Shown here in pieces: positions 30,185 to 49,431 of a stretch of DNA of 64,000 nt. Both the position numbers and the translations under genes were made by a program. The notes beneath the pieces were generated by a model, which was not told the DNA's origin, searched no databases, and saw only the letters and a list, made by a program, of their open reading frames with translations. The first letter of the stretch is position 1. The number at the start of each line of letters is the position of its first letter. The stretch is from Acidimicrobiia bacterium (GTDB lineage: Bacteria > Actinomycetota > Acidimicrobiia > Acidimicrobiales > Bin134), in NCBI GenBank assembly GCA_009842675.1, contig VYEX01000002.1, positions 7,592-71,591 on the forward strand, given 5' to 3'.

Positions 30185-31611
30185 GATCCGGTCTTCTCGG
30201 ATTTCGATTGCAGGCTCGAGACCACTCGTCCGTTGCGAATCTCCACGGAGTACAAGGTAAGGGGATCGGTGGCCGGAAACCGAACCGCCTCGCCGGTTCG
30301 AAGGTCGAAGCGGCCGTTGTGCTTGGGGCACTCCACCAAACAGTCAAGCACCACGCCCTCGGCCAGATAGGCCTGGCCGTGGGTGCAGAGCCCTTCGGTG
30401 CATACCAGGGTGCCGTCGTCTAGTCGGAAGAGGGCGTAAGTCTCGTCGCCCACAACTATTTGGCGGGCCGATCCGGACTCGGGGTCGTTGGCCGGACCGA
30501 GGTCGAACAACCCGTCGTGGCGGTTGCCGGCCCACACGGTGTGCCCGGTGTTGACAAACGATCGTCCAGCTTCGGACACCGTGGGCACGTCGTCGCGGGG
30601 CTTGTCGTAGGTCGGATTCCGCCATTGGCGCAGCAAGGTGGAGAGGATGTCCCGATAGGCCGTCCATGTATTGGGTGAAGCTGGGGCCAAGTGGTCTTTC
30701 ACCTCGTGGTGAAGGGCGGGCAGGGCGTAGTAGGGAACGGTGGGGAAGATGTGGTGCTCAACGTGGTAGTTCATGTTGGAGTACAGGAACCGGAAGACAG
30801 GATTCATGTACACGGTGCGGGTGTTGAGACGGTGGTCGAGCACATCTTCCCGAAGACCGGCGTGCTGGGTGATGGCGAAGAAGATCATCAGCCACGCGCC
30901 GTAGACCGTGGGCAAGCCGACATAGAGCAACGGCACGATGGACCAAATCGCAATCGACCAGGCCGTGACCCCGGCCAATATGGCTATGTAGGCCCGCGAC
31001 TCCCACTTGAGCTTGCCGAGCTCGTCGGCGGGAATGAACGACCGGGCCTCGTCGTCGATGCGCCCCACGGCGTGTTTGGCGGTGCGGATCACCATGTTGG
31101 GCACGTTCAAAACGGGTACGAACAACAACGCGATCGAGGTAGGTGAGGAGGGGCGGGGAAAGATGATCTCGGCGTCGCGGCCCACCACGATGGTGTCGGT
31201 GTGGTGGCGGACGTGCGACCAGCGCCACAGGGTGGGCTGGCGCAACAGCATGAATGAGGCCAAGTAGTACACCACGTCGTTGAGCCACTTGGTCTTGAAG
31301 GCGGTGCCGTGCCCGCACTCATGCCAGCGGGAGTCGCCGGCCCCGCCGTACAGGGCGCCGTAGGCGGCGAAGGCCGGGACCGCCCACCAGGTGCCCAGCG
31401 ACAAGAAGGCCAGATAGCCGAACCCGGCCAAGAGGCCGAGCCAGGCGACGGTATCGAGGGCCGCTCTCGCGTTGCCCCGCTCTTGGAGTTGGCGCAGGCG
31501 CACGGGGTCGATGGGCGGGCGGAACCACTCGGCCTCCACCAACCCGCCGGCTGCGGCCCGGTCTGCTTCGGGGCCTCCGACCCGGTAGTCCCGCCGGTCG
31601 GAACTCACCAT
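30181..31611 (-). CDS. Fused membrane desaturase/hydroxylase and Rieske ferredoxin (MocD-MocE-like)
   Basis: 476 residues. The N-terminal part (about 45-330) is a fatty-acid-desaturase-fold diiron enzyme with hydrophobic segments and the three His boxes HECGH (97-101), HVRHH (133-137) and HVEHH (283-287). The C-terminal part (about 355-465) is a Rieske [2Fe-2S] domain with ligands Cys409, His411, Cys428 and His431 (CTHG, CPKH). In Rhizobium, MocD and MocE are separate proteins that, with a reductase, are thought to demethylate the rhizopine 3-O-methyl-scyllo-inosamine. Here both are one chain inside an inositol operon, so I infer an inositol O-demethylase or hydroxylase with its own electron carrier. 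No MocF-like reductase is visible. The ATG at 31611 overlaps the iolD stop by 7 bases. Confidence 0.88.
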   Translation of the reverse strand: MVSSDRRDYRVGGPEADRAAAGGLVEAEWFRPPIDPVRLRQLQERGNARAALDTVAWLGLLAGFGYLAFLSLGTWWAVPAFAAYGALYGGAGDSRWHECGHGTAFKTKWLNDVVYYLASFMLLRQPTLWRWSHVRHHTDTIVVGRDAEIIFPRPSSPTSIALLFVPVLNVPNMVIRTAKHAVGRIDDEARSFIPADELGKLKWESRAYIAILAGVTAWSIAIWSIVPLLYVGLPTVYGAWLMIFFAITQHAGLREDVLDHRLNTRTVYMNPVFRFLYSNMNYHVEHHIFPTVPYYALPALHHEVKDHLAPASPNTWTAYRDILSTLLRQWRNPTYDKPRDDVPTVSEAGRSFVNTGHTVWAGNRHDGLFDLGPANDPESGSARQIVVGDETYALFRLDDGTLVCTEGLCTHGQAYLAEGVVLDCLVECPKHNGRFDLRTGEAVRFPATDPLTLYSVEIRNGRVVSSLQSKSEKTGS

Positions 31612-33497
31612 CCCACTCGTTGGCCAGCTTTGCCGGAGTCCATGGCGGCCCGGGCGGCCCGCACGTCGGGGCTGGTGCTCACCTCGGGCACGCCCACCTC
31701 CCAGAAGGAGCCGCCCTCGGTCCAGCGATAGGCGTGGGTGTTCAAGGCGATCACATAGGTGCTCTCGGAGCCTCGGGCCCGGCCGAATGCGGCTTCGAGT
31801 TCGGCTATGGATGTGACGGTTTTGGTTTGGCAACCCATGGAGGCGGCGTGGGCGGCAAAGTCAACCGCAGTTGGCTCCTGCACTCGGGAGTCGGCGATGA
31901 GGTTGTTGAACGGCACCCCTCCTTGGGCCAATTGCAGGCGATTGATCACTGCGTAGCCGCCGTTGTCGCACACGATGACGATGAGCTTGTGGCCGGTGAG
32001 CACGGTGCTATAGAGATCGCTGTTCATCATCAGGTAGGAGCCGTCGCCCACCAGCACCACCACCTCTCGGTCGGGTAGGGCCATCTTGGCCCCCCATCCG
32101 CCGGAGATCTCATAGCCCATACAGGAGTAGCCGTATTCGCAGTCGAAGGAGTGAACAGTTTGGCCGCGCCATCCGTTGACCAGCTCGCCGGGGAACCCGC
32201 CGGCCGCGGCCAGCACATAGGTGGACTCGTCGGCCAGCCGGTCCACCACCCCCACCACCTGGGCATAGGTGGGGAGCTCGGCGTGGTCGATTTGGGGGTC
32301 GTCAGAGGCCCGACCGGTCGATGCCACCGCCTCGGGAGCGGCGATCTTGTCGATGTAGGCGTGGTATTGCGATGTCTCCGACGAGGCCCGGTCGGACCAC
32401 TCCTCTGGGGCCCGGTAGTTGTCCAGCACATCGCCCAGTTCGGCTAAGCCCTCGCGGGCGTCGGCTACCAGGGGTAGGGAACGGTGCTTGGTGGCGTCGA
32501 AGCGGGCCGCGTTCAAGCCGACGATCTGCACGTCGTCGCCCCCGCCGAACACCGTCCACGATCCGGTGACGAAGTCGCCCAGGCGAGTGCCTACTGCCAA
32601 AACCACGTCGGCCTCGGCGGCCATGGCATTGGCCGAGGTGCAGCCGGTGACCCCGATGGGACCGCAGTTGAGCGGGTGGTCGGCCACCAATGAGGTGCGA
32701 CCGGCCACCGTTTCCACCACCGGGATGTTGTGATCCTCGGCGAAGGCTCGGAGCTGGTCTTCGGCCAACGACCAGTGGACCCCACCGCCGGCCACAATGA
32801 GGGGCCGCTCGGCGTTGGCCAGGGCAGCGGCGGCTCGGCGCAATTGGCTGGTGTCAGGGCGGGGGCGGCGGATCTCGTGGGTGGCCTCTTCGAAAAAGCG
32901 GGAGGGGAAGTCGAAAGCCTCGCCTTGGACGTCTTGGGGGAGGCTGATGAAGGCCGGGCCGCAGTCGCCGGGGTCGAGCATGACGCCGAGGGCGTTGGGC
33001 AGCGAATGAACCAACTGCTCCGGCGTGGTGATGCGGTCCCAGTAGCGGACGACGGGCTTGAAGGCGTCATTGACGGTCAGCGTCGGGTCGCCGAAGTGCT
33101 CCACCTGCTGGAGCACCGGGTCGGGTATACGGCTGTTGAAGGTGTCGCCGGCCAGCAGAAGCAGGGGCATCCGGTTGGCCATGGCCACTGCGGCCGCAGT
33201 CACCATGTTGGTGGCGCCGGGGCCGATGGAGCTGGTGGCGGCCATGATGCGGCGGCGGCGGTTGGCCTTGGCGTAGGCCACCGCGGCCAAGGCCATGCCC
33301 TGCTCGTTCTGGCCCCGCCAAGTGGGCAGCGCCTCACCGGCCTGCTCCAGTTCGTGGCCCAAACAGGTGACGTTGCCGTGGCCGAAGATGGCAAACACGC
33401 CGGCAAAAAGGGGAACGGTTTGGCCATCGACCTCGATTCGCTGCGCGGCCAAGTAGCGCACGATGGCCCCGGAGGTCGTCAGTCGGACGGTTTTCAT
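31605..33497 (-). CDS. iolD: 3D-(3,5/4)-trihydroxycyclohexane-1,2-dione hydrolase (IolD)
   Basis: 630 residues. Thiamine-diphosphate enzyme that opens the inositol-derived ring to 5-deoxyglucuronate. Visible are IFGHGNVTCLG and GQNEQGMA near the N-terminus with the conserved Glu, and the ThDP/Mg motif beginning GDGSYLMMNSDLYS near residue 490. The length fits IolD. ATG follows GGGAGGACAGCC, a good ribosome binding site. It is the largest enzyme gene of the operon. Confidence 0.95.
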   Translation of the reverse strand: MKTVRLTTSGAIVRYLAAQRIEVDGQTVPLFAGVFAIFGHGNVTCLGHELEQAGEALPTWRGQNEQGMALAAVAYAKANRRRRIMAATSSIGPGATNMVTAAAVAMANRMPLLLLAGDTFNSRIPDPVLQQVEHFGDPTLTVNDAFKPVVRYWDRITTPEQLVHSLPNALGVMLDPGDCGPAFISLPQDVQGEAFDFPSRFFEEATHEIRRPRPDTSQLRRAAAALANAERPLIVAGGGVHWSLAEDQLRAFAEDHNIPVVETVAGRTSLVADHPLNCGPIGVTGCTSANAMAAEADVVLAVGTRLGDFVTGSWTVFGGGDDVQIVGLNAARFDATKHRSLPLVADAREGLAELGDVLDNYRAPEEWSDRASSETSQYHAYIDKIAAPEAVASTGRASDDPQIDHAELPTYAQVVGVVDRLADESTYVLAAAGGFPGELVNGWRGQTVHSFDCEYGYSCMGYEISGGWGAKMALPDREVVVLVGDGSYLMMNSDLYSTVLTGHKLIVIVCDNGGYAVINRLQLAQGGVPFNNLIADSRVQEPTAVDFAAHAASMGCQTKTVTSIAELEAAFGRARGSESTYVIALNTHAYRWTEGGSFWEVGVPEVSTSPDVRAARAAMDSGKAGQRVGW

Positions 33498-33510: not shown

Positions 33511-34686
33511 TCACTCGATCTCTAGCGATACCACATCTTCCCAGGCGCCGGTCTCCCAACTCTTCAGCATGGCGGCTTGCACGCTCACGCAGGCCAGAGC
33601 CTGCTCCATGCCCGCGCTGTGGGGTCGGCCCTCGGCCACTGCGGTTAGGAACTCGTGGTCTTGGATGGTCACCATGTCTTCGAAGCCGATGGAGTTGGCG
33701 TCGCCGGGCACAAAGGCGCCGTGATAGGGGTGGCGTTCGCTGGCCCGCACGGTGGTGTAGCCCTGCTGGGGATCGGACGCCCTGAACAACTGAAGCTCGT
33801 TCATGGTTTCGTGGTTCCAGCTCAGCGCACCTTCGGTGCCGAATATGTCAAAGGCCATTTGGCTTTGGGGGCCGACGATGGACCTGCTTGATTCGAACAC
33901 GCCGTGGCTTCCGTTGGCGAATACGGCCAGTGCGGCAAAGTAGTCCTCGTTGGTGACCTCGCCGGTCGGGTCGCCGGGGCTGCCTCGGTCGTAGTGGGTG
34001 CCGGCTCCCGAGGGAAGCGGGCGCTCCTTTATGAAGGTCTCCCCGATGCCCACCACCCGGGAAATGGGACCGTTGAGCATCAAAGCCAGGTCCACCGCGT
34101 GGCTCAGAATGTCGGTGGTGGCGCCGTGACCGGCCTGGTCGATCAGAAAACGCCAGGAGAGCAGGCCCATGGGGTCGGCCCCATACATGGAGAAGAACCG
34201 GCCTCGATAGTTGGATATCTGCCCCAGCTGACCGGTGGCGATGAGCTCTCGGGCGTAGAGCACCAGGGGGGCGAAGCGGTAGTTGTAGCCCACCCCGGTG
34301 ACGATTCCGGCCTGGCGGCAGGCACGGGCTATTCGGGCGGTTTGGCTGGGGGTGCCTCCCACCGGCTTCTCGCAGAACACGTGCTTTCCGGCCTCGGCGG
34401 CCGCGGTGGCCAATGGCTCGTGCAGCATGTTGGGAGCGCAGACGACGACAACATCCACGTCGGGATGCTCGACTGCGGGCTCCCAGTATTCGGTGGCCTC
34501 CCGGAAACCGAAGGCACTGACCGCGGCATGGCGGCGGGACTCCACGTTGTCGGAGCAGATCACCAAGTCCACGTCGTAGGCCCGGTCTTCGAACAGCATG
34601 GGCAGTCGCAGGTAGGAGCGGGTGTGGGCCTGCCCCATCCAGCCGAAGCCCACTACGGCCAGACCGAGTCGCTTTGGGGAGGTCAT
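33511..34686 (-). CDS. Gfo/Idh/MocA family dehydrogenase, probable inositol-isomer dehydrogenase
   Basis: 391 residues, distinct from the IolG of this operon. Rossmann motif VVGFGWMGQAH, CEKPVGG with the catalytic Lys, and DILSHAVDLALML with the active-site Asp/His pair. The position suggests oxidation of scyllo- or another inositol, or of an inosamine, as for IolX/IolW or MocA. The ATG at 34686 overlaps the stop of the hydroxyacid dehydrogenase gene in an ATGA. Confidence 0.85.
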   Translation of the reverse strand: MTSPKRLGLAVVGFGWMGQAHTRSYLRLPMLFEDRAYDVDLVICSDNVESRRHAAVSAFGFREATEYWEPAVEHPDVDVVVVCAPNMLHEPLATAAAEAGKHVFCEKPVGGTPSQTARIARACRQAGIVTGVGYNYRFAPLVLYARELIATGQLGQISNYRGRFFSMYGADPMGLLSWRFLIDQAGHGATTDILSHAVDLALMLNGPISRVVGIGETFIKERPLPSGAGTHYDRGSPGDPTGEVTNEDYFAALAVFANGSHGVFESSRSIVGPQSQMAFDIFGTEGALSWNHETMNELQLFRASDPQQGYTTVRASERHPYHGAFVPGDANSIGFEDMVTIQDHEFLTAVAEGRPHSAGMEQALACVSVQAAMLKSWETGAWEDVVSLEIE

Positions 34687-35648
34687 GACCCGGTCCCTAC
34701 CCGGCGGTCCACTCCTGGATGGGCTGCGGCCTGGTCGAGCAGATGCTCGGGCATGCCGCCCCGCAGCCAGGCGAGAGCCTGGTCCAGCGCTTGGCCTATC
34801 AGCCTGACGATGCCGACTGTGGTGGTCGAGGCCACATGGGGGGTGACGACCACGTTGACGCGGCCCAGCAGCGGGTGGTCGGGGGGCAGCGGCTCAGGCT
34901 CTGTCACGTCGAGGCCCGCGCCGGCCACGTGACCCGAGTCGAGGGCGGCCAACAGGGCTTCTTGGTCTAGCAGCGCCCCTCGGGCGCAATTGATGATGAT
35001 CACTCCGGGGCGCATAGCAGCCAGCGAATCCGAGTTGATGATGTGGTGGGTCTCGGGGGTGGCGGGCGCGTGCAGCGACACCACGTCGGCTTCGGCCCAA
35101 AGCTGGTCGAGGCCGACCAATTCCCCCATGGGCGCAACCTCGAGATAGGGGTCGTAGATCAGAACGCTCATCCCCAATGCCTCGGCGTAGCGCCCCAGAA
35201 GAGAGCCGATCCGCCCGCAGCCCACCAATCCCAGCACTCGCCCGTCCAGCTCCAGCGCACCGGGGCCAGTGAGTCGGCCAGGACCACCTGCGGTACCGGC
35301 GGCCACGCGTGCCTCTGAGCCCTTGAGCCGCTTGGCCACCGAGAGCATCAGCGCCAGGGCGTGCTCGGCGGTGGAAACCGTGGGGGCGTCGGGGGTGTTG
35401 GTGGCGGCCACCCCGTGGGCGGCGCAGGCGGCAACGTCCACGTTGTCGTAGCCGATGCCCGAGCGGGCCACCACTTTGAGGTTGGGCAGCCGGCGGCAGG
35501 CATCGTCGTCCCACGGCCGGTCGGCGGCCACCACCACGCCGTCGGCGTGATCTGGGCCATCAACCAACTCCACATCGGGGGGAATAACCAGCTCAGATGG
35601 GGGAGTGCGGTCGATCCATATCCGGATCTTGTTGTCTGATTCGGTCAT
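34683..35648 (-). CDS. D-isomer-specific 2-hydroxyacid dehydrogenase
   Basis: 321 residues. The NAD-binding domain has LGLVGCGRIGSLLGRY, the catalytic Arg in INCARGALLDQ, the Glu in DVTEPEPLP and the His in TPHVASTT. It resembles phosphoglycerate or hydroxypyruvate reductases. It is not part of the standard Iol pathway; in this operon it may handle a hydroxyacid or lactone-derived product. Translationally coupled to the next gene. Confidence 0.85.
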   Translation of the reverse strand: MTESDNKIRIWIDRTPPSELVIPPDVELVDGPDHADGVVVAADRPWDDDACRRLPNLKVVARSGIGYDNVDVAACAAHGVAATNTPDAPTVSTAEHALALMLSVAKRLKGSEARVAAGTAGGPGRLTGPGALELDGRVLGLVGCGRIGSLLGRYAEALGMSVLIYDPYLEVAPMGELVGLDQLWAEADVVSLHAPATPETHHIINSDSLAAMRPGVIIINCARGALLDQEALLAALDSGHVAGAGLDVTEPEPLPPDHPLLGRVNVVVTPHVASTTTVGIVRLIGQALDQALAWLRGGMPEHLLDQAAAHPGVDRRVGTGS

Positions 35649-35682: not shown

Positions 35683-36699
35683 TCATTGTCCTCGGGCCAG
35701 CATCTCGTCGATCTCAGCAGGGGTGGGCATGGCATCCGAACAGGCCAGGCGACCAGCCACGATAGCCCCGGCGGCATTGGCGCGGGTGACGATTTCTACC
35801 GGATCGAGCCCGGCCAGCAGCCCGTCGGCCAGCGACCCGCCGAAGGCATCGCCGGCGCCGAGGCCGCAGACCACCTCAACCGGCATTGGGCGCACCTCGG
35901 CGCGGCTCTCCGGGGTGGCCACCAGCACTCCATCGGCCCCTTGTTTCACAATGGCCAGCGACACTCCTCGGTCCAGCAGCCGATCAGCGGCGGTATGGGG
36001 ATCGGAGGTGCCGATGGCAATCTCGCACTCGGTGCGGTTGCCCACCGCCACCGTGGCGAGCTCCACGGCCTGGCTGATGTGGGTGCTGGCCTCCTCGCGG
36101 GAAGTCCAGAAACTGGGCCGGAAGTCCAGGTCGAGCACGGTATGGGGGCGGCGGTTGCGCTGTTCCAGAACCCTCATCACGGTGGATCGGGATGGTTCCT
36201 GGGCGAACCGGGATCCGGCGGTCCACAGCACCGGCACGGTGGCGGCGATGTCGGGAATGTCGGCAGGCCGGAGGTTCATCTCCGGTCCGCGGGGTTCGCG
36301 GTAGAACAGCAGCGGCGGGTCGGTCGGGGGGTCGAGGGCGCAGAAGGCCAGCGCAGTGCGCAGGTCAGGGTCGGTGGACACGAAGCGGTTGTCCACCCCG
36401 AACTTCTCGGCCAGGTCGGCCCGGATGTACTCGCCAAAACCGTCGTCGCCCACTCGAGTAACCACTGCGGCCCTCCTTCCCAGTCGGGCGCAGGCCACGG
36501 CCACATTGGTGGGGGAGCCGCCAATCGACTTGGCAAAAGTCTGGACCTTGCTCAGCGGAACACCGCTTTGCTGGGGATACAGATCGACGCTGACCCGCCC
36601 GATTGTCAGCACTTCAAGATTCGCGGGGCTACGGCCTACATCGGCAGCTTCAAGATCAGTTGGAGCGCGGGCAGCGTCAGCCGCCTGGGTGTCAGGCAC
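35683..36699 (-). CDS. iolC: 5-dehydro-2-deoxygluconokinase (IolC)
   Basis: 338 residues, PfkB/ribokinase family. It phosphorylates 2-deoxy-5-keto-gluconate at C6. Visible are LTIGRVSVDLYPQQ, the GGSPTNVAVACARLG signature and the C-terminal GLGAGDAFGGSLADGLL motif with the catalytic Asp. A roughly 25-residue N-terminal extension (MPDTQAADAARAPTD...) precedes the fold; the true start may be later. The second iol gene cluster member after the transporter genes. Confidence 0.93.
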   Translation of the reverse strand: MPDTQAADAARAPTDLEAADVGRSPANLEVLTIGRVSVDLYPQQSGVPLSKVQTFAKSIGGSPTNVAVACARLGRRAAVVTRVGDDGFGEYIRADLAEKFGVDNRFVSTDPDLRTALAFCALDPPTDPPLLFYREPRGPEMNLRPADIPDIAATVPVLWTAGSRFAQEPSRSTVMRVLEQRNRRPHTVLDLDFRPSFWTSREEASTHISQAVELATVAVGNRTECEIAIGTSDPHTAADRLLDRGVSLAIVKQGADGVLVATPESRAEVRPMPVEVVCGLGAGDAFGGSLADGLLAGLDPVEIVTRANAAGAIVAGRLACSDAMPTPAEIDEMLARGQ

Positions 36700-36731: not shown

Positions 36732-37511
36732 CTAAGTACCAGCTTGAGCCAATTCGTGCTGTAGTGCTTCGAGTTCGGCGCCACCGGCCATGAGCTGGGT
36801 CAGATCAGCCTGCGACAACTCTTCTTTGGCCCAGTTGCCCATGGACACTCCCCGGTTGAGGATCACGAAGCGGTCGCCCACCGGGTAGGCGTGGTTGGGA
36901 TTGTGGGTGATGAAGATCACCGCCAACCCCTGGTCGCGGGCTTCCACAATGCGCCGCAGCACCACGCCCGACTGCTTGACGCCCAGTGCCGAGGTGGGCT
37001 CGTCGAGGATCAGCACCCGGGCGCCGAAGTAGCTGGCCCGGGCGATGGCCACCGACTGCCGCTCACCGCCGGAGAGCGTGCCTACGCTCTGCTCAACGTC
37101 GCGGATGTCGATGCCCATCTTGGCCATCTCCTCTTTGGCGATGCGCTTGGCCCCCTCGATATCGATTTGGCGGAAGGGCCAGATGCCGGTCTTGGGCTCA
37201 GCACCCAGGAAGAAGTTTCGCCACACCGACATCAGCGGCACCATGGCCAAGTCCTGGTACACGGTGGCGATCCCTCGACCCAGCGCCTCGCGGGGAGAGT
37301 TGAAGCGCACCTCCTCGCCTTCCATCAAGAGCGTGCCCTCGTCGTGCTGGTGCACGCCGGCCAGGATCTTGATGAAGGTGGACTTGCCCGCGCCGTTGTC
37401 ACCCAACACGCAGGTGACCTCGCCGGGGTTCACCGTGGTGCTCACCCCGGTTAGGGCGATGATGTTCCCGTAGAACTTCGAGATGTTGTTCAGTTCGAGA
37501 AAGTCGGCCAT
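36732..37511 (-). CDS. Sugar-type (CUT2) ABC transporter ATPase, single domain
   Basis: 259 residues. Walker [11 protein letters not shown]-loop YQDLAMVP, signature LSGGERQ, Walker [13 protein letters not shown] and the H-loop (THNPNHA). CUT2 ATPases such as RbsA or MglA have two tandem ABC domains (about 500 residues); this has one, so it must work as a homodimer, like the short FrcA-type ATPases. ATG at 37511 follows AAGGAGA. It energises the permease and binding protein encoded upstream. Confidence 0.92.
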
Positions 37512-37563: not shown

Positions 37564-39792
37564 TCATCGGACCTTCTCCGCTTGAGAGCGCACGTAGTTG
37601 TTGACCAGTACCGCCACCAGCAGCAGGGCACCCAGCACCAGGAAGCGCCAGTCGCTGTTCCAAGTGGCGAATCCGATTCCGGAGGTGATCATGCCCCAGA
37701 TCACCGCGCCGATGGCGGCGCCGATGGCCGATCCGTAGCCGCCGGTGAGCAAGCAGCCACCGACCACCGCCACGATGATGTAGCGGAACTCGTTTCCGTC
37801 GCCCACGTTGGCCTGTACTGAGTTGAGCCGGAAGGCGATCACCATGCCGGTGATCCAAGCCGATGCCGAAACAAGCATGAACAGCGTGGTCTTGGTGCGG
37901 GCGGCGGGCACACCTACTGAGCGCGATGCCTCCTTGTTGCCGCCTACCGCGAAAATCCAGTTGCCGAACTGGGTGCGGGCCAGGACCCAGGCCCCCACTA
38001 CTGCAAACAACAAGAACAGCATCACACCCACACCGAATCGGGTTTCGGCTCGGGTGGCAGCCAGTTCTTCGCTGGTGATGAACATCAGCTTGGCCGCGAT
38101 GCCCAGCATCACTGAACCCAGCCCGACGAAGACCAGCGATCGGCCCACACTCTCGTCGGAGGTGAACAGCGTGCGGTAGAGCGTGGCCAAGGCGAAGACC
38201 GCGAAGGCCACGATGCCTCCCTTGGCCACCGCCATGATGATGCTGTAGAGAATTCCGTCGCCGTCGGCCAATTCCAGGATCAACGAAACCAGTCCTGCGG
38301 CCAAACCGAGCACCGTCCCGATTTGCCGAGCGAGGGGTCCGTGAATCGGGGGTGGCGGGGCACTTGTGCGCCGAGCGGCAATCAGCCGGGCGATGGCGGA
38401 GGCCGCCAGAAGGAGCGCGATCAACAGCAGCGCGGTGAACAGCTCCACCCGCAGCTTGCGGGAACCGGCTTCCGACTGGATGAAGAAGGCCAGGATCACG
38501 ATGCCCACCGAGGTAAGGAGGGTGAACAACACCGCCAGTCCTCGGCGCCGGGCGGCAATGCTGAGCAGCACCACCCCGGAAATGGCCAGGATGCCGAACA
38601 GGATGGCTCGGGCGCCCTGCACGGTGATCATGTAGCTGACCGCGGGAATGAGGGCGATGAGGGCACCGATGGCCGGGTATCCCACGCTGACCCGGCCCAG
38701 CGCGGCCAGTACGGCTAGAACCCCAGTGGCGCCGATGCCGATGGCCAGCACGGCGCGTCCCGGTGTACCGGTCAAGAAGTCGAGGCGATCGGCGTTGTTG
38801 GAGTCCATGACCGCGGCGACCAATATGGCTCCGACGATGGCTACAACCCCGGCGATCAGGAATTGGATCACCCGCGGGTCGTGCTCTGTCGGGGCTGGCT
38901 CACGCTCGGCCGGTTGGTAGCGGGCCAGACACCAGCCAGCCACCCCCACTAACACTCCCGCTCCGGTGATGATCCCGAAAATCCAGTTGGAGCTCCTGCC
39001 GTCTTGGTTGAGCAGCAGGATGTAGCCGATGGCACCTACGGCCGCGCCGATGGCGGAGATCAGGTATCCGCCCATGTTGGGCTTCTCGCGTCGGGCGTAG
39101 GCCAACTCCATGGTGCCCAGGATCAAGACGACCGCGCCGATGATGAGCAGGCCGCTCCAGGCCCAGTCTCGGTCGTCCCAGATGTGACCATTTCGGACCC
39201 AGGTCGCACCGAAGATGTTGTCCCAGAACTCATAGCCGCCCGAGCGGTCGAGACCTTCAGCGATCACCTTGTTGGTGAACAGCTTGGTGAAGCCGAGCTT
39301 GGCTCCGATGAGGATGAAGAACGTGCCCAGGGTGACGATGAAGCTGGGTAACGACGTTTTGTCTACCAGCGTCCCGTTGAACCAGCCGATGGCCAAGGCA
39401 AAGGCCAGCGAAAGGGGCACCGCGAGGTGCAGGCTGAGCCCGGCACCGCCCAACTCGGCGGTGTCGCTGCTCAACAAAACCACTATTACCGCGGTAGCCC
39501 CGGTCATGGACCCCGAGGAGAGGTCGAACTCTCCTCCGATCATCAGCAACGCCACCGGTATTGCCATCAGGCCGAGGGTGGCGGCCACATCCAGATAGTT
39601 GGCTGTGCCCCCTGCGGTGCCAAACGGCGCCGAGACCAGCCAGAACAGCAGCCAGACGCCGACCGCGCCGATAAGGGCGCCAATCTCCGGTCTGGTCAAC
39701 AGCTGCTGGACCGGTCCTCGGTGGGCTAGTCGCTCGTCTTCTACCGGCGGCGAGCTATCCGTAGTGTCAGTCGTAGTGGTCGCTTCGGCCAC
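37564..39792 (-). CDS. Extra-large CUT2 ABC transporter permease
   Basis: 742 residues, about twice the usual 320-350 for this family. The N-terminal half has the first family block ([16 protein letters not shown] and [10 protein letters not shown]). The second family block sits at the far C-terminus ([41 protein letters not shown]). Between them, about residues 225-590, lie roughly nine additional hydrophobic segments with short charged loops. The insertion is not a second permease copy because it lacks both family blocks. The N-terminus is Thr/Asp-rich and cytoplasmic. It should transport an inositol-type substrate with the adjacent ATPase and binding lipoprotein. Confidence 0.88.
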
Positions 39793-39939: not shown

Positions 39940-40983
39940 CTATCGGGTTCCCTGGGACACCAGTGCCTTGACCTCTGCCGCATTGGCGGTGTCGACGAAG
40001 CCCGGACCGGTGAGGATGGGCAGGCCGCCGCCCGCGGTGTTCAGGTTGGTGGCTTGCAGGTGCATCAAGATGACCGGCAGGTAGCCCTGGAGGTACTGCT
40101 GCTGGTCGACTGTGAAGGCCACGTTGCCGGCCTCAATCTGATCGATGAGGTCACTGGACAGGTCGAAGCCGCCGATGATGAGGTCCCGTCCGGCTTGCTC
40201 GCCGGCCGCAAGGGCCCGCAAGGGCAGGTTCGGACCGACACCGAGAACGCCGTCGATGCTCTCATCGCCCTGGAGGATGGCGGCAATGGTGTTCTGCTGC
40301 TCATCTGGGGTGGCGTCGAGGCCGACGAACTCCGAGGTCACCTGGCCGTTGAAGGTCTCAGCCAAGCCATTGCAGCGCTCTTCCAGAGCCACGTTGGTCT
40401 GCTCCTGGCGGGCGCAGAGCACGTGGGTGGCACCCAGAGCGTTGAACCGCTCGCCGGCGCCGTTGCCGGCAACGGTCTCGGTTTGTCCGATGTGGGTGGT
40501 CGCGCCGAGGTCCTTGTAGTTGTTCACACCCGAGTTGAGCGTGTACAGCGGGATGCCTGCGGCGACAACGGCCTCAGCAGCCGACTGGACGCCAGCCGGG
40601 TCGGCCAGCGAGATGGCGATGCCGCTGGAGCCGGCGGCGATGGCCGCCTCGATCTCCTGGGCTTGCCTCAGGGCGTCGTTGTTGGAGCCGAAGTAGACCA
40701 CTTCACAGCCGATGGCTGCGGCGGCGTCACGCACGGCCACCTCAACCACTGACCAGAAGGTGCCGGAGTCACCGTGGGTGATGACGTGGTAGGTGTGGTC
40801 GCAACCCTGGGCGGGGTCGACTTCCACAGCCTCCGTCGGCGCTGGAGCTTCAGTGGCTGGTGCCGCTGCTTCGGTAGGTTCGCTGGGTGCAGGTTCGCTG
40901 GCGTCATCGTCGTCGTTGCCGCAGGCCGCGACTACGAGCGTGAACGCCAGGAGCAATGCAAACAGCTTCCATAGCTTTCTCAT
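39940..40983 (-). CDS. Sugar-binding lipoprotein (CUT2 type, periplasmic-binding-protein-like I)
   Basis: 347 residues. Signal peptide with lipobox VVAAC at about residue 21, then the acidic CGNDDDD leader and a Pro/Ala/Glu linker to about residue 58. The type I binding fold follows: YHVITHGDSGTFW, a variant of the ribose/inositol-binding family start, then GSSGIAISLADP and GFDLSSDLIDQI. It should capture an inositol or inositol derivative outside the membrane. The following permease gene is separated by two hairpins. Confidence 0.9.
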   Translation of the reverse strand: MRKLWKLFALLLAFTLVVAACGNDDDDASEPAPSEPTEAAAPATEAPAPTEAVEVDPAQGCDHTYHVITHGDSGTFWSVVEVAVRDAAAAIGCEVVYFGSNNDALRQAQEIEAAIAAGSSGIAISLADPAGVQSAAEAVVAAGIPLYTLNSGVNNYKDLGATTHIGQTETVAGNGAGERFNALGATHVLCARQEQTNVALEERCNGLAETFNGQVTSEFVGLDATPDEQQNTIAAILQGDESIDGVLGVGPNLPLRALAAGEQAGRDLIIGGFDLSSDLIDQIEAGNVAFTVDQQQYLQGYLPVILMHLQATNLNTAGGGLPILTGPGFVDTANAAEVKALVSQGTR

Positions 40984-41011: not shown

Positions 41012-41926
41012 TTATTGGTTTTGTGAGGTTCCGGCCCCCGCGAGTACGGGTTCCAGACTGCGCAGGAAATCGATGCTCTGGCGGGCGTCGAACCTCAGCC
41101 GAGCTACCGCAGAGGGATCATCCTCTGAGATGGCCGCATCCTGCTCCAGGACGTACCAGAGGTCGCGTCCTGTCTTTTCAAGGAGGTCGACGATCTCGGC
41201 GATCGGCAGCCCTCCCTGACCTAGCGGCGGGAACAAACCACGCTGTACGCCCTCCATGAGCGACAGCTCTCCCGCCATAACCTGGGCGGCGATGCCCAGG
41301 TCGACGTCTTTGATGTGTACCAGTGCAATGCGATCTAGATAGCGCCTGGTCATTTCTAGGACGTCAGCGCCTCCCAACAGAAAATGCGCAGTGTCGAGCA
41401 CCAGCGCGGTATCGCTGATCTCCAGAATGCGCTCGGCTTCCTCCCCGGTCTCCACCAGGCATCCGAAATGGGCATGGAGAGCCTGAGTCAGACCGTGGTC
41501 GCTGGCCACTCGTCCTACTTCGGCCAGAGCGTCGGCCACGATTCGCCATTCGCGATCGGCCAGCGGGTCTTGGCGCCAGTCGTCCAGGTGGCTGACCACA
41601 CATGTGACGAAGAAGCGACCGCCTCCACCGGCGATCAGGGCCGCAGACTCAGCAGCCGAGGCCAGGGTGCTCTCGGTCTGAACGGGATCGTGCAGAACCA
41701 GGGGGACGAACCCTCCGAGCAGCGACAATTTGTGGCGGTCAAGAGCGGCTCGCAGATCGCCGGGATCGGTGGGCAAATACCCGAGTGACCCAAGCTCGGT
41801 ATGGGTGAACCCGGCGCTGGACATCTCCGTCAGGACGGCTTCAACAGGAAGCTGAAATCCCCAGCCGGGCATCTCACACACACCCCAACTGATGGGCGCG
41901 GTAGCGGTTCGCTCAAGCAGTGTCAT
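41012..41926 (-). CDS. IolE/MocC-like TIM-barrel isomerase or inosose dehydratase
   Basis: 304 residues, AP_endonuc_2/xylose isomerase-like fold. N-terminal ISWGVCEMPGWGFQLP, HAHFGCLVET, LVLDTAHFLLGG and IALVHIKDVD supply the metal-binding residues. IolE dehydrates 2-keto-myo-inositol; MocC is the homologue in rhizopine catabolism, and the WGVCE start looks more like MocC. It is the only candidate for the dehydratase step here. First gene of the operon; the binding-protein gene begins 28 bases after its stop. Confidence 0.82.
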   Translation of the reverse strand: MTLLERTATAPISWGVCEMPGWGFQLPVEAVLTEMSSAGFTHTELGSLGYLPTDPGDLRAALDRHKLSLLGGFVPLVLHDPVQTESTLASAAESAALIAGGGGRFFVTCVVSHLDDWRQDPLADREWRIVADALAEVGRVASDHGLTQALHAHFGCLVETGEEAERILEISDTALVLDTAHFLLGGADVLEMTRRYLDRIALVHIKDVDLGIAAQVMAGELSLMEGVQRGLFPPLGQGGLPIAEIVDLLEKTGRDLWYVLEQDAAISEDDPSAVARLRFDARQSIDFLRSLEPVLAGAGTSQNQ

Positions 41927-47521: not shown

Positions 47522-48289
47522 GTGCGATTGGGGGAGATGAGCTGGACGGCTTTGGGTGAGCAGCTCAAACAGGGTCCGTTGGATGTGATTGTGCCTCTGG
47601 GCGCCCTTGAGCAACACGGTCCTCATTTACCCCTGGACACCGACGCCCTCATCGCCGAGGCGGTGTCCGACCGGGCGGCACAAACGGCGGGGGAGTGCAT
47701 GGTGGCCCCCATCATCCCCGTAGGCGCCTCCCACCACCATCTGGCTTTTCCCGGTACGGCCAGCCTGAGCGACGGGACTCTCCGCAGCGTGATGGTGGAG
47801 GTGATCCAGACCCTGCTGAGCCACGGATTCCGGGGTGCCTATTTGGTGACCGGCCATGCTGGGAACGTCGGTGCTATGGCCGCAGTCATGGCTGAGTTGG
47901 ATCCCACCGAACGGAGCCGGGTGGTCTCGTTCGACGATTGGCCCGCCCAACGGGACGCCGTTCACCGAGTAGCTGAGGATCAGCTCGGTTTGGATCGCGA
48001 GTTGGTCGGAACCCACGGCGGTCACTTCGAGACCAGCATCATGCTGGCCATCGCTCCCGACCGGGTGGATATGGCGTCGGCAGTTGCCGGCCATATCGGA
48101 CCAGCAGCCTCGGCCAGTGCCAAGTTGCGCTCCGAGGGCATGGCCGCCCTCTCTCCGGTTGGCATCATCGGCGACCCCCGCCAAGCCACCGCCGACGCCG
48201 GGGAGAGCTACCTCGACGCCTTGGTGGATCTGGTGGTCGAGGGCATCGAAGCCCATCGCCATCGGTCAATGCAAAGGGTGGCCCCATGA
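47522..48289 (+). CDS. Creatininase-family amidohydrolase
   Basis: 255 residues from a GTG with GAGG 5 bases upstream. The creatininase fold shows PLGALEQHGPHLPLDTD (Glu, His, Asp metal ligands), GASHHHLAFPGTASLSD and GHAGNVGA. Family members hydrolyse cyclic amides or formamides, or remove residues from small peptides as in mycofactocin maturation. No mycofactocin genes are near, so a catabolic amidase role is more likely. Joined to the permease gene by an ATGA. Confidence 0.88.
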   Translation: MRLGEMSWTALGEQLKQGPLDVIVPLGALEQHGPHLPLDTDALIAEAVSDRAAQTAGECMVAPIIPVGASHHHLAFPGTASLSDGTLRSVMVEVIQTLLSHGFRGAYLVTGHAGNVGAMAAVMAELDPTERSRVVSFDDWPAQRDAVHRVAEDQLGLDRELVGTHGGHFETSIMLAIAPDRVDMASAVAGHIGPAASASAKLRSEGMAALSPVGIIGDPRQATADAGESYLDALVDLVVEGIEAHRHRSMQRVAP

Positions 48290-49431
48290 CTGAGCCGGCG
48301 GTCGCGATGGGCTGGGACAGAATCCGTGTCGCCATTCCCCGGGTGGTGGAAGCCGGGTTCGCCATCTTCGTGGTCATCATTCTGGGTGCGGTGATGACGT
48401 TCAAGTCCGACGTGTTCCTGACCACCGGCAACCTCCAGAACATCCTTTTGCAAACCTCGTTCTTGGCCTGCGCGGCCTTTGGGATGACCCTGGTCATCAT
48501 TGCGGCCGAACTAGATCTGTCCCAGGGCTCGGTGTTGGCCCTCATTGGGGTGGTGGCGGCTGAGACCATGGTGAGGAACAACAGCATCGTGCTCGGCTTG
48601 CTGGCCGGAGTGGGTGTGGGCATCGCCGCCGGTCTGTTCAACGGACTCGTCACCGCGGTGCTCAAGGTCCCCTCCTTCATCACCACCTTGGGCCTTTTGA
48701 TTATGGCGAGGGGACTGGCCCGTGAAATCACCGCGGGCAATACGGTGGGCAACCTTCCCGGAGGCTGGAAGGCGTGGTGGAGCGGGGAATTCATCGGCTT
48801 GCGAATGCCCATTTGGGTTGCGCTGGGCCTCGGCGTGGTCTACCACGTGATCCTGCGCTATTCCCGGTTTGGACTGCGGATCTACGCAGTGGGGGGGAAC
48901 GCCGAAGCAGCCCGCCGGGCCGGAATCAACGTCACCCGGGTGCGGGTCACGGTGTTTGTGCTGGGAGGACTCGCCGTCGCAGTCGGAGGCTTCACCCTGT
49001 TGGGCCGGGTAAACGTCGGCCAGCCCAATGCTGCGGTGCTTACTGAGCTCTATGCGGTGGCCGCAGTTGTTCTCGGAGGTACCAACCTGTTCGGAGGACG
49101 AGGATCAATACCCCGCACCCTTGCCGGGGTGTTGCTGATCGGGGTGATCCGCAACAGCCTCAACCTGCTCAATGTGTCGTCCAACATGCAGGACGTGTGG
49201 CTGGGCGTTGTATTTGTGTTGGCCATGACCTCGCAATTCCTGCGCCGATACTTGGACCGGTGGGCCAATCGAAGCGAAGACACCGCCATTGAAGTCGAAG
49301 TCGAGCACGAACTCGATGAAGAACGTCGCGCCATCGAACGGGCCGAGCAATCGGCCCGATCGGGCGAAAGAGAACTCCAAGACGCCGACGAGGCCGAGCA
49401 ATCGGCCCAGTCGACGTCGGAGCAACCATAA
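48286..49431 (+). CDS. CUT2 ABC transporter permease, second system
   Basis: 381 residues. About nine hydrophobic segments with AELDLSQGSVLALIGVV, SFITTLGLLIMARGLAREI, IYAVGGNAEAARRAGINV and VVLGGTNLFGGRGS, all standard for ribose/xylose-type permeases. The last 65 residues are a charged, helix-prone cytoplasmic tail with an AEQSARS/AEQSAQS repeat that typical members lack. Standard core size, unlike the 742-residue permease of the inositol operon. The binding protein follows after 19 bases. Confidence 0.92.
   Translation: MTEPAVAMGWDRIRVAIPRVVEAGFAIFVVIILGAVMTFKSDVFLTTGNLQNILLQTSFLACAAFGMTLVIIAAELDLSQGSVLALIGVVAAETMVRNNSIVLGLLAGVGVGIAAGLFNGLVTAVLKVPSFITTLGLLIMARGLAREITAGNTVGNLPGGWKAWWSGEFIGLRMPIWVALGLGVVYHVILRYSRFGLRIYAVGGNAEAARRAGINVTRVRVTVFVLGGLAVAVGGFTLLGRVNVGQPNAAVLTELYAVAAVVLGGTNLFGGRGSIPRTLAGVLLIGVIRNSLNLLNVSSNMQDVWLGVVFVLAMTSQFLRRYLDRWANRSEDTAIEVEVEHELDEERRAIERAEQSARSGERELQDADEAEQSAQSTSEQP

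Follow-up and report, generated by a model that had tools for sequence, protein, structure and literature searches.

We found that positions 37564-39792 (minus strand) of the window, the whole 64,000-nucleotide stretch of Acidimicrobiia DNA that was analysed, encode a 742-residue protein that we call a variant, and not a standard member, of the CUT2 importer permeases: its core is split by an insertion of ~375 residues made of transmembrane (TM) hairpins, which brings an otherwise ordinary subunit to over twice its usual size. The reading that we favour, and hold to be the probable one, is that of an inositol-type importer carrying a clade-specific, growing hairpin array, which likely lies around the outside of the permease as a belt in the membrane, with a stabilising or tuning effect on the importer, and does not provide a second transport path.

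The gene, its importer core and its neighbours

The gene is a single uninterrupted open reading frame (ORF) with a GTG start and a terminal stop only, and a Pfam scan of its product returned PF02653 (BPD_transp_2) only, in two stretches (112.1 bits vs. a gathering cut-off of 26.8). Alignment with homologs of 335-365 residues places the core at residues 1-~195 and ~583-742, and the invariant core residues and motifs are retained in both long and short forms; a PDB sequence search with the whole protein returned nothing at E 0.1. The original prediction of a CUT2 permease interrupted by a large membrane insertion, with family blocks at its two ends only, is therefore confirmed, and its figure of about 365 inserted residues is correct to within about 15. 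It had also denied a duplicated permease core, and we saw no sign of one, the two Pfam stretches being the two halves of one core; duplication does nevertheless relate hairpins within the insertion. The locus and the parts of the permease are as follows:

31605..33497, minus strand: IolD (profile score above cut-off)
35683..36699, minus strand: IolC-type 5-dehydro-2-deoxygluconokinase (profile score above cut-off)
36732..37511, minus strand: partner ABC ATPase with a single nucleotide-binding domain (PF00005), a conserved neighbour
37564..39792, minus strand: CUT2-type permease with membrane insertion, 742 residues (ORF and Pfam)
37567..38046, minus strand: permease core, C-terminal half (residues 583-742; TM6, coupling region, TM7-TM10; Pfam, alignment and AF2)
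38053..39177, minus strand: membrane insertion (residues 206-580) with 12 predicted TM helices (alignment, hydropathy and AF2)
39208..39792, minus strand: permease core, N-terminal half (residues 1-195; TM1-TM5, GGEFDLS motif; short-homolog alignment and AF2)
39940..40983, minus strand: lipoprotein-type sugar-binding protein (Peripla_BP_4 domain match), a conserved neighbour
41012..41926, minus strand: IolE-like inosose dehydratase (profile score below the curated cut-off)

With 742 residues and 22 predicted segments the protein departs from the CUT2 standard of ~330 residues and 10 TM segments, which the core alone fits. A Peripla_BP_4-type binding protein (upstream) and an ABC ATPase (downstream) are encoded alongside the permease in the same direction, as expected for CUT2. 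The ATPase has 260 residues and one ABC_tran domain, and so lacks the tandem nucleotide-binding domains (NBDs) of two-domain ATPases such as RbsA and XylG; the same ATPase family occurs beside short relatives. The permease adjoins the ATPase in all 25 long loci compared (20 genome-collection loci and five larger regions), and the binding protein is present in 24 of them, the exception (L036) ending at a contig end. The trio of permease, ATPase and binding protein is found at the short loci compared as well, and none of nine window genes tested was, as a rule, common to long loci yet absent from short ones; among the compared genes, the permease insertion itself is what distinguishes the long clade.

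As IolC and IolD score above their cut-offs and the permease lies beside a binding protein and an ATPase, we take the protein to be the membrane subunit of an inositol (or related polyol) importer; iol genes also adjoin most long loci. Against the rhizopine transporter model (NF052284) the binding protein reached 192.9 bits, under the cut-off of 420. The Gfo/Idh/MocA protein at 33511-34686 reaches 278 bits with the model for levoglucosan dehydrogenase (cut-off 650) and 97.8 bits with that for inositol dehydrogenase (cut-off 355), so that the pathway may begin with an oxidation other than the classical one. The inositol cluster also contains a 2-hydroxyacid dehydrogenase (34683-35648), which is retained alongside in several relatives (L023-L029 and L031-L033). 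Elsewhere in the window, at 48286-49431 on the plus strand, lies another CUT2-type permease; it has the usual length (381 aa), shows no insertion ahead of TM6 as judged by eye and is followed by a lipoprotein-like binding protein.

Recurrence and predicted structure

The gene lies in a 3.39 Mb genome assembly of 81 contigs. We found nothing in favour of an assembly error, a frameshift fusion or a mis-called start or stop of an ordinary 330-residue permease. We reject this reading, to which we give next to no weight, because 15 of the 22 genomes of the genus (its own included) have the full-length gene in the same uninterrupted frame (84-100% identity), two of them one-contig assemblies (G020 and G021). 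Relatives also align over their full length down to 34% identity: the genome collection holds 20 further insertion-bearing loci (L023-L041 and L043; identity from 90% to 34%), a raw count that overstates independence in that several loci of different collections come from genomes that are identical or almost so. The original prediction had likewise seen no frameshift. Across the class, a relative of either length was found at E 1e-30 in 70 of 395 sampled genomes, and the insertion profile matched in 34 of 390; these sets, like the 198 phylum genomes used below, are samples drawn from larger groups. One locus (L133) was left out as its start codon was not found under the rule used, and another with a broken frame (L060) was excluded from the size comparison and the tree.

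Structure prediction and a search for the insertion elsewhere had been proposed as checks from the outset. The AF2 model of the full protein (33 sequences) has a mean pLDDT of 77.6 and a pTM of 0.76, and the best PDB chains found for it by VIA-align are importers of the BtuC fold (HmuU, Z 15.2; 2nq2, 14.9; BtuC, 14.9), with 257-279 residues aligned within model residues 21-732, both halves used and most of the insertion skipped. The four best chains span Z 14.5-15.2 at an rmsd of 4.7-5.2, to be read with the tool's caveat that Z values up to about 13 may be nonspecific for helical proteins; Foldseek returned nothing at E 0.001 or better for the full model, with 2nq2 at E 0.098. The core is thus predicted to fold as a BtuC-type (type II) importer with the insertion looped out. 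Modelled alone, the insertion (pLDDT 75.8, pTM 0.62) found no convincing match among solved folds (best VIA-align Z 7.3; best Foldseek E 0.16), a result that does not demonstrate a new fold.

Searches for the insertion as a protein in its own right were also negative. A Pfam scan gave sub-cut-off matches only (best DUF6350, E 0.012, 15.3 bits vs. 30.8), the profile matches in 198 phylum genomes were two long permeases and two weak fragments, and in the 390 genomes of the class every match belonged to a frame of at least 620 residues, except for a contig-end piece in G507. In other permeases the insertion was found in the long relatives, and XylH-type permeases have one hairpin at the same site. 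The suggestion that the protein carries a new membrane domain hence stands in so far as no Pfam family, stand-alone protein or solved fold was found to match the insertion, but a row of helical hairpins, in part repeats of one another, describes the insertion better than a foreign domain joined by fusion would. The other suggestion, a larger pore complex, is without support: the core retains the predicted importer fold and motifs, and we saw no indication of a second pore.

The hairpin array and its history

By alignment, the insertion site is the loop between TM5 and TM6, the latter leading to the coupling region (helix numbering and the coupling role are taken from the BtuC fold). Between two fixed core columns the window protein has 396 residues vs. 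11-18 in 79 short proteins, and 87 long proteins have 287-448 there, in discrete groups (287-296, 336-347, 360-370, 392-412 and 445-448). A hydropathy scan marked 22 hydrophobic segments in the window protein, 12 of them inside the insertion, 17-18 in three compact forms (L030, L034 and L039) and 10 in the two short forms scanned. Compact insertions are predicted to hold eight helices in four hairpins, and that of the window protein twelve helices in six hairpins, one nested within another. The predicted loops follow the positive-inside pattern: over 43 representatives, cytoplasmic loops hold 563 K+R vs. 288 D+E, and outer loops 338 K+R vs. 524 D+E. An 883-residue relative (L040:5013-7661) has an extra hydrophilic stretch of roughly 80 residues between TM5 and the hairpins. 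In the window protein the units are:

38995..39177, minus strand: hairpin unit U1 (residues 206-266), profile repeat with U2 and U4
38788..38991, minus strand: hairpin unit U2 (residues 268-335), profile repeat and best match to the XylH hairpin
38629..38766, minus strand: extra hairpin X (residues 343-388), missing in compact 8-TM forms (profile comparison)
38455..38628, minus strand: hairpin unit U3 (residues 389-446) with TxQxxR motif, weak repeat relation (profiles)
38350..38451, minus strand: hairpin unit U4, first helix (residues 448-481), profile repeat
38164..38337, minus strand: extra hairpin Y (residues 486-543), nested in U4 (AF2 helices; in 9 of 43 representatives)
38059..38160, minus strand: hairpin unit U4, second helix (residues 545-578), profile repeat

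Profile comparison (43 of 69 long proteins kept, rows at least 90% identical to another removed) shows three of the ancestral hairpins, U1, U2 and U4, to be recognisable repeats. Their profiles match in register, with 52-56 columns aligned and hhalign probabilities of 69 for U1-U2, 94 for U1-U4 and 81 for U2-U4, each score was attained by none of 60 shuffles that preserve the hydrophobic pattern, and core hairpins run as controls gave no match to the units. U3 was not established as a further repeat, its three pairs being attained by 2, 3 and 4 of 60 shuffles. Nor were X and Y established as unit copies, as no clear relation to the units was found, and they may have arisen otherwise than by duplication; the X hairpins of three lineages lack a clear match to one another, and a single ancient gain of X was likewise not established.

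In two relatives, L134 and L135, nearly the entire insertion self-aligns with an offset of one hairpin (scores 117 and 100, where the best of 12 shuffles reached 61 and 70), and in their genomes the U1 (first-unit) region is hit twice by the insertion profile, so that a unit duplication probably happened in these two. Of the 12 proteins tested, two others were slightly above their shuffles (L024, and L237, a near-copy among the enlarged relatives, with 76 vs. 66), and eight were not (L001, L030, L031, L037, L040, L137, L236 and L238); four of these, L040, L238, L137 and L236, are enlarged too.

On a tree built from the core only (102 rows), all 40 long rows fall on one side of a branch with an SH-aLRT of 97 and the short forms on the opposite side, by which the insertion carriers are shown to form one clade; the tree was made by a quick method without bootstrap, on 103 of 167 rows kept after removal at 93% identity or more, less L060. 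At least nine size-class changes are required on it, and none of the 40 long rows has lost the four-hairpin state. The insertion has a higher dN/dS than the core in seven of seven pairs (0.11-0.48 vs. 0.03-0.16, about 2.5 to 4.4 times; NG86 estimates, rough where dS is near or above 1), from which the insertion is shown to be under purifying selection, looser than that on the core. Eight insertion residues are invariant in all 43 representatives (R208, G249, R291, T390, Q392, R395, R448 and R475), as is the TxQxxR motif of U3, which suggests a role more specific than that of a passive belt.

Competing readings and known systems

In the importer that we favour, the ten core helices would make up an ordinary permease half of the BtuC/CUT2 type, which would dimerise, be handed its substrate by the lipoprotein binding protein and be driven by the neighbouring single-domain ATPase. 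The clade ancestor would have acquired a four-hairpin array in the outer (periplasmic-side) loop just ahead of TM6, where XylH-type permeases have one helical hairpin, and its descendants would have gained further hairpins, the window protein reaching six. Such growth is possible because each hairpin re-exits, so that an added pair keeps the core topology unchanged. We infer that the array packs outside the permease as a membrane belt and stabilises or tunes the importer.

The main rival to a stabilising role, which we think possible but less likely, is an accessory module that docks a partner (the binding protein, an enzyme or an envelope component) or equips the importer with a further step of regulation or ion sensing. 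It is favoured by the charged and polar residues that are invariant throughout the representatives, the TxQxxR motif included, by clade-wide retention under purifying selection, and by the constancy of the ATPase and binding protein beside the long permeases, but it has to accommodate the variable size and raised dN/dS of the insertion as well as the absence, as a rule, of a long-locus-specific gene among the nine tested. Mostly neutral growth, with topology-preserving hairpins added at a tolerant site and entrenched by packing without new function, would fit extra hairpins that differ by lineage, the repeated changes of size class and again the raised dN/dS; the eight invariant residues and a four-hairpin state whose loss was not seen in the 40 long rows of the tree make it unlikely. 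Unlikelier still, we consider, is an origin by capture of a foreign membrane protein: the sizes found leave a gap from 18 to 287 residues (L060 set aside), as fusion would have it, but three of the units repeat one another, and no stand-alone relative was found in the 198 phylum or 390 class genomes, bar the weak fragments and the contig-end piece.

A bolder account, which we put forward only tentatively, joins growth by hairpin addition and duplication in one loop to a function of the clade-specific module's own, the invariant charged residues making up a surface on its side for docking or sensing. The usual view of such ABC importer permeases is that of a fixed unit with about 10 helices; were this account true, the dimer would have up to about 44, and the single hairpin would be a module of importer architecture. 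The natural series of one core with 0, 8, 10 or 12 predicted extra helices bears on how membrane proteins gain helices, on whether the hairpins so gained have a function or are simply tolerated, and on whether one loop of the fold is a general growth site.

No report of such a hairpin-array permease was found in the part of the literature that was available to us. The closest known proteins are the short inositol-type BPD_transp_2 (PF02653) permeases of Actinomycetota (e.g. L044 of Nonomuraea), whose second core half is 50-61% identical and whose motifs and gene neighbours match those here, but which have 11-18 residues between TM5 and TM6 vs. about 390, and 10 predicted TM segments vs. 22. 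XylH (E. coli b3568) and its relatives are likewise enlarged by helices at this site, and the cytoplasmic loop between these helices is basic, but they have a single hairpin vs. four to six here and belong to a different subfamily; the window permease scores 89.5 bits with the XylH/GguB equivalog NF040906, under the cut-off of 450. In register, the XylH hairpin matches U2 with a probability of 66.6%, U1 with 34%, U3 with 4% and U4 with 13%, scores attained by none of 40 shuffles for U1, U2 and U3 and by two of 40 for U4, and a reversed control for U1 reached 18.3 vs. 20.4; a relation between this hairpin and the insertion units is suggestive, not proven. Type II importers of the BtuC, HmuU and FhuB type share the predicted core fold (Z 13.9-15.2), but those chains lack such an insertion, as judged by length, and carry other substrates. 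ABC transporters with TMD0 or accessory TM domains, mostly exporters, also add membrane helices to an ABC core, placed N-terminally or fused; in the permease described here, by contrast, the hairpins lie within an internal loop of an importer.
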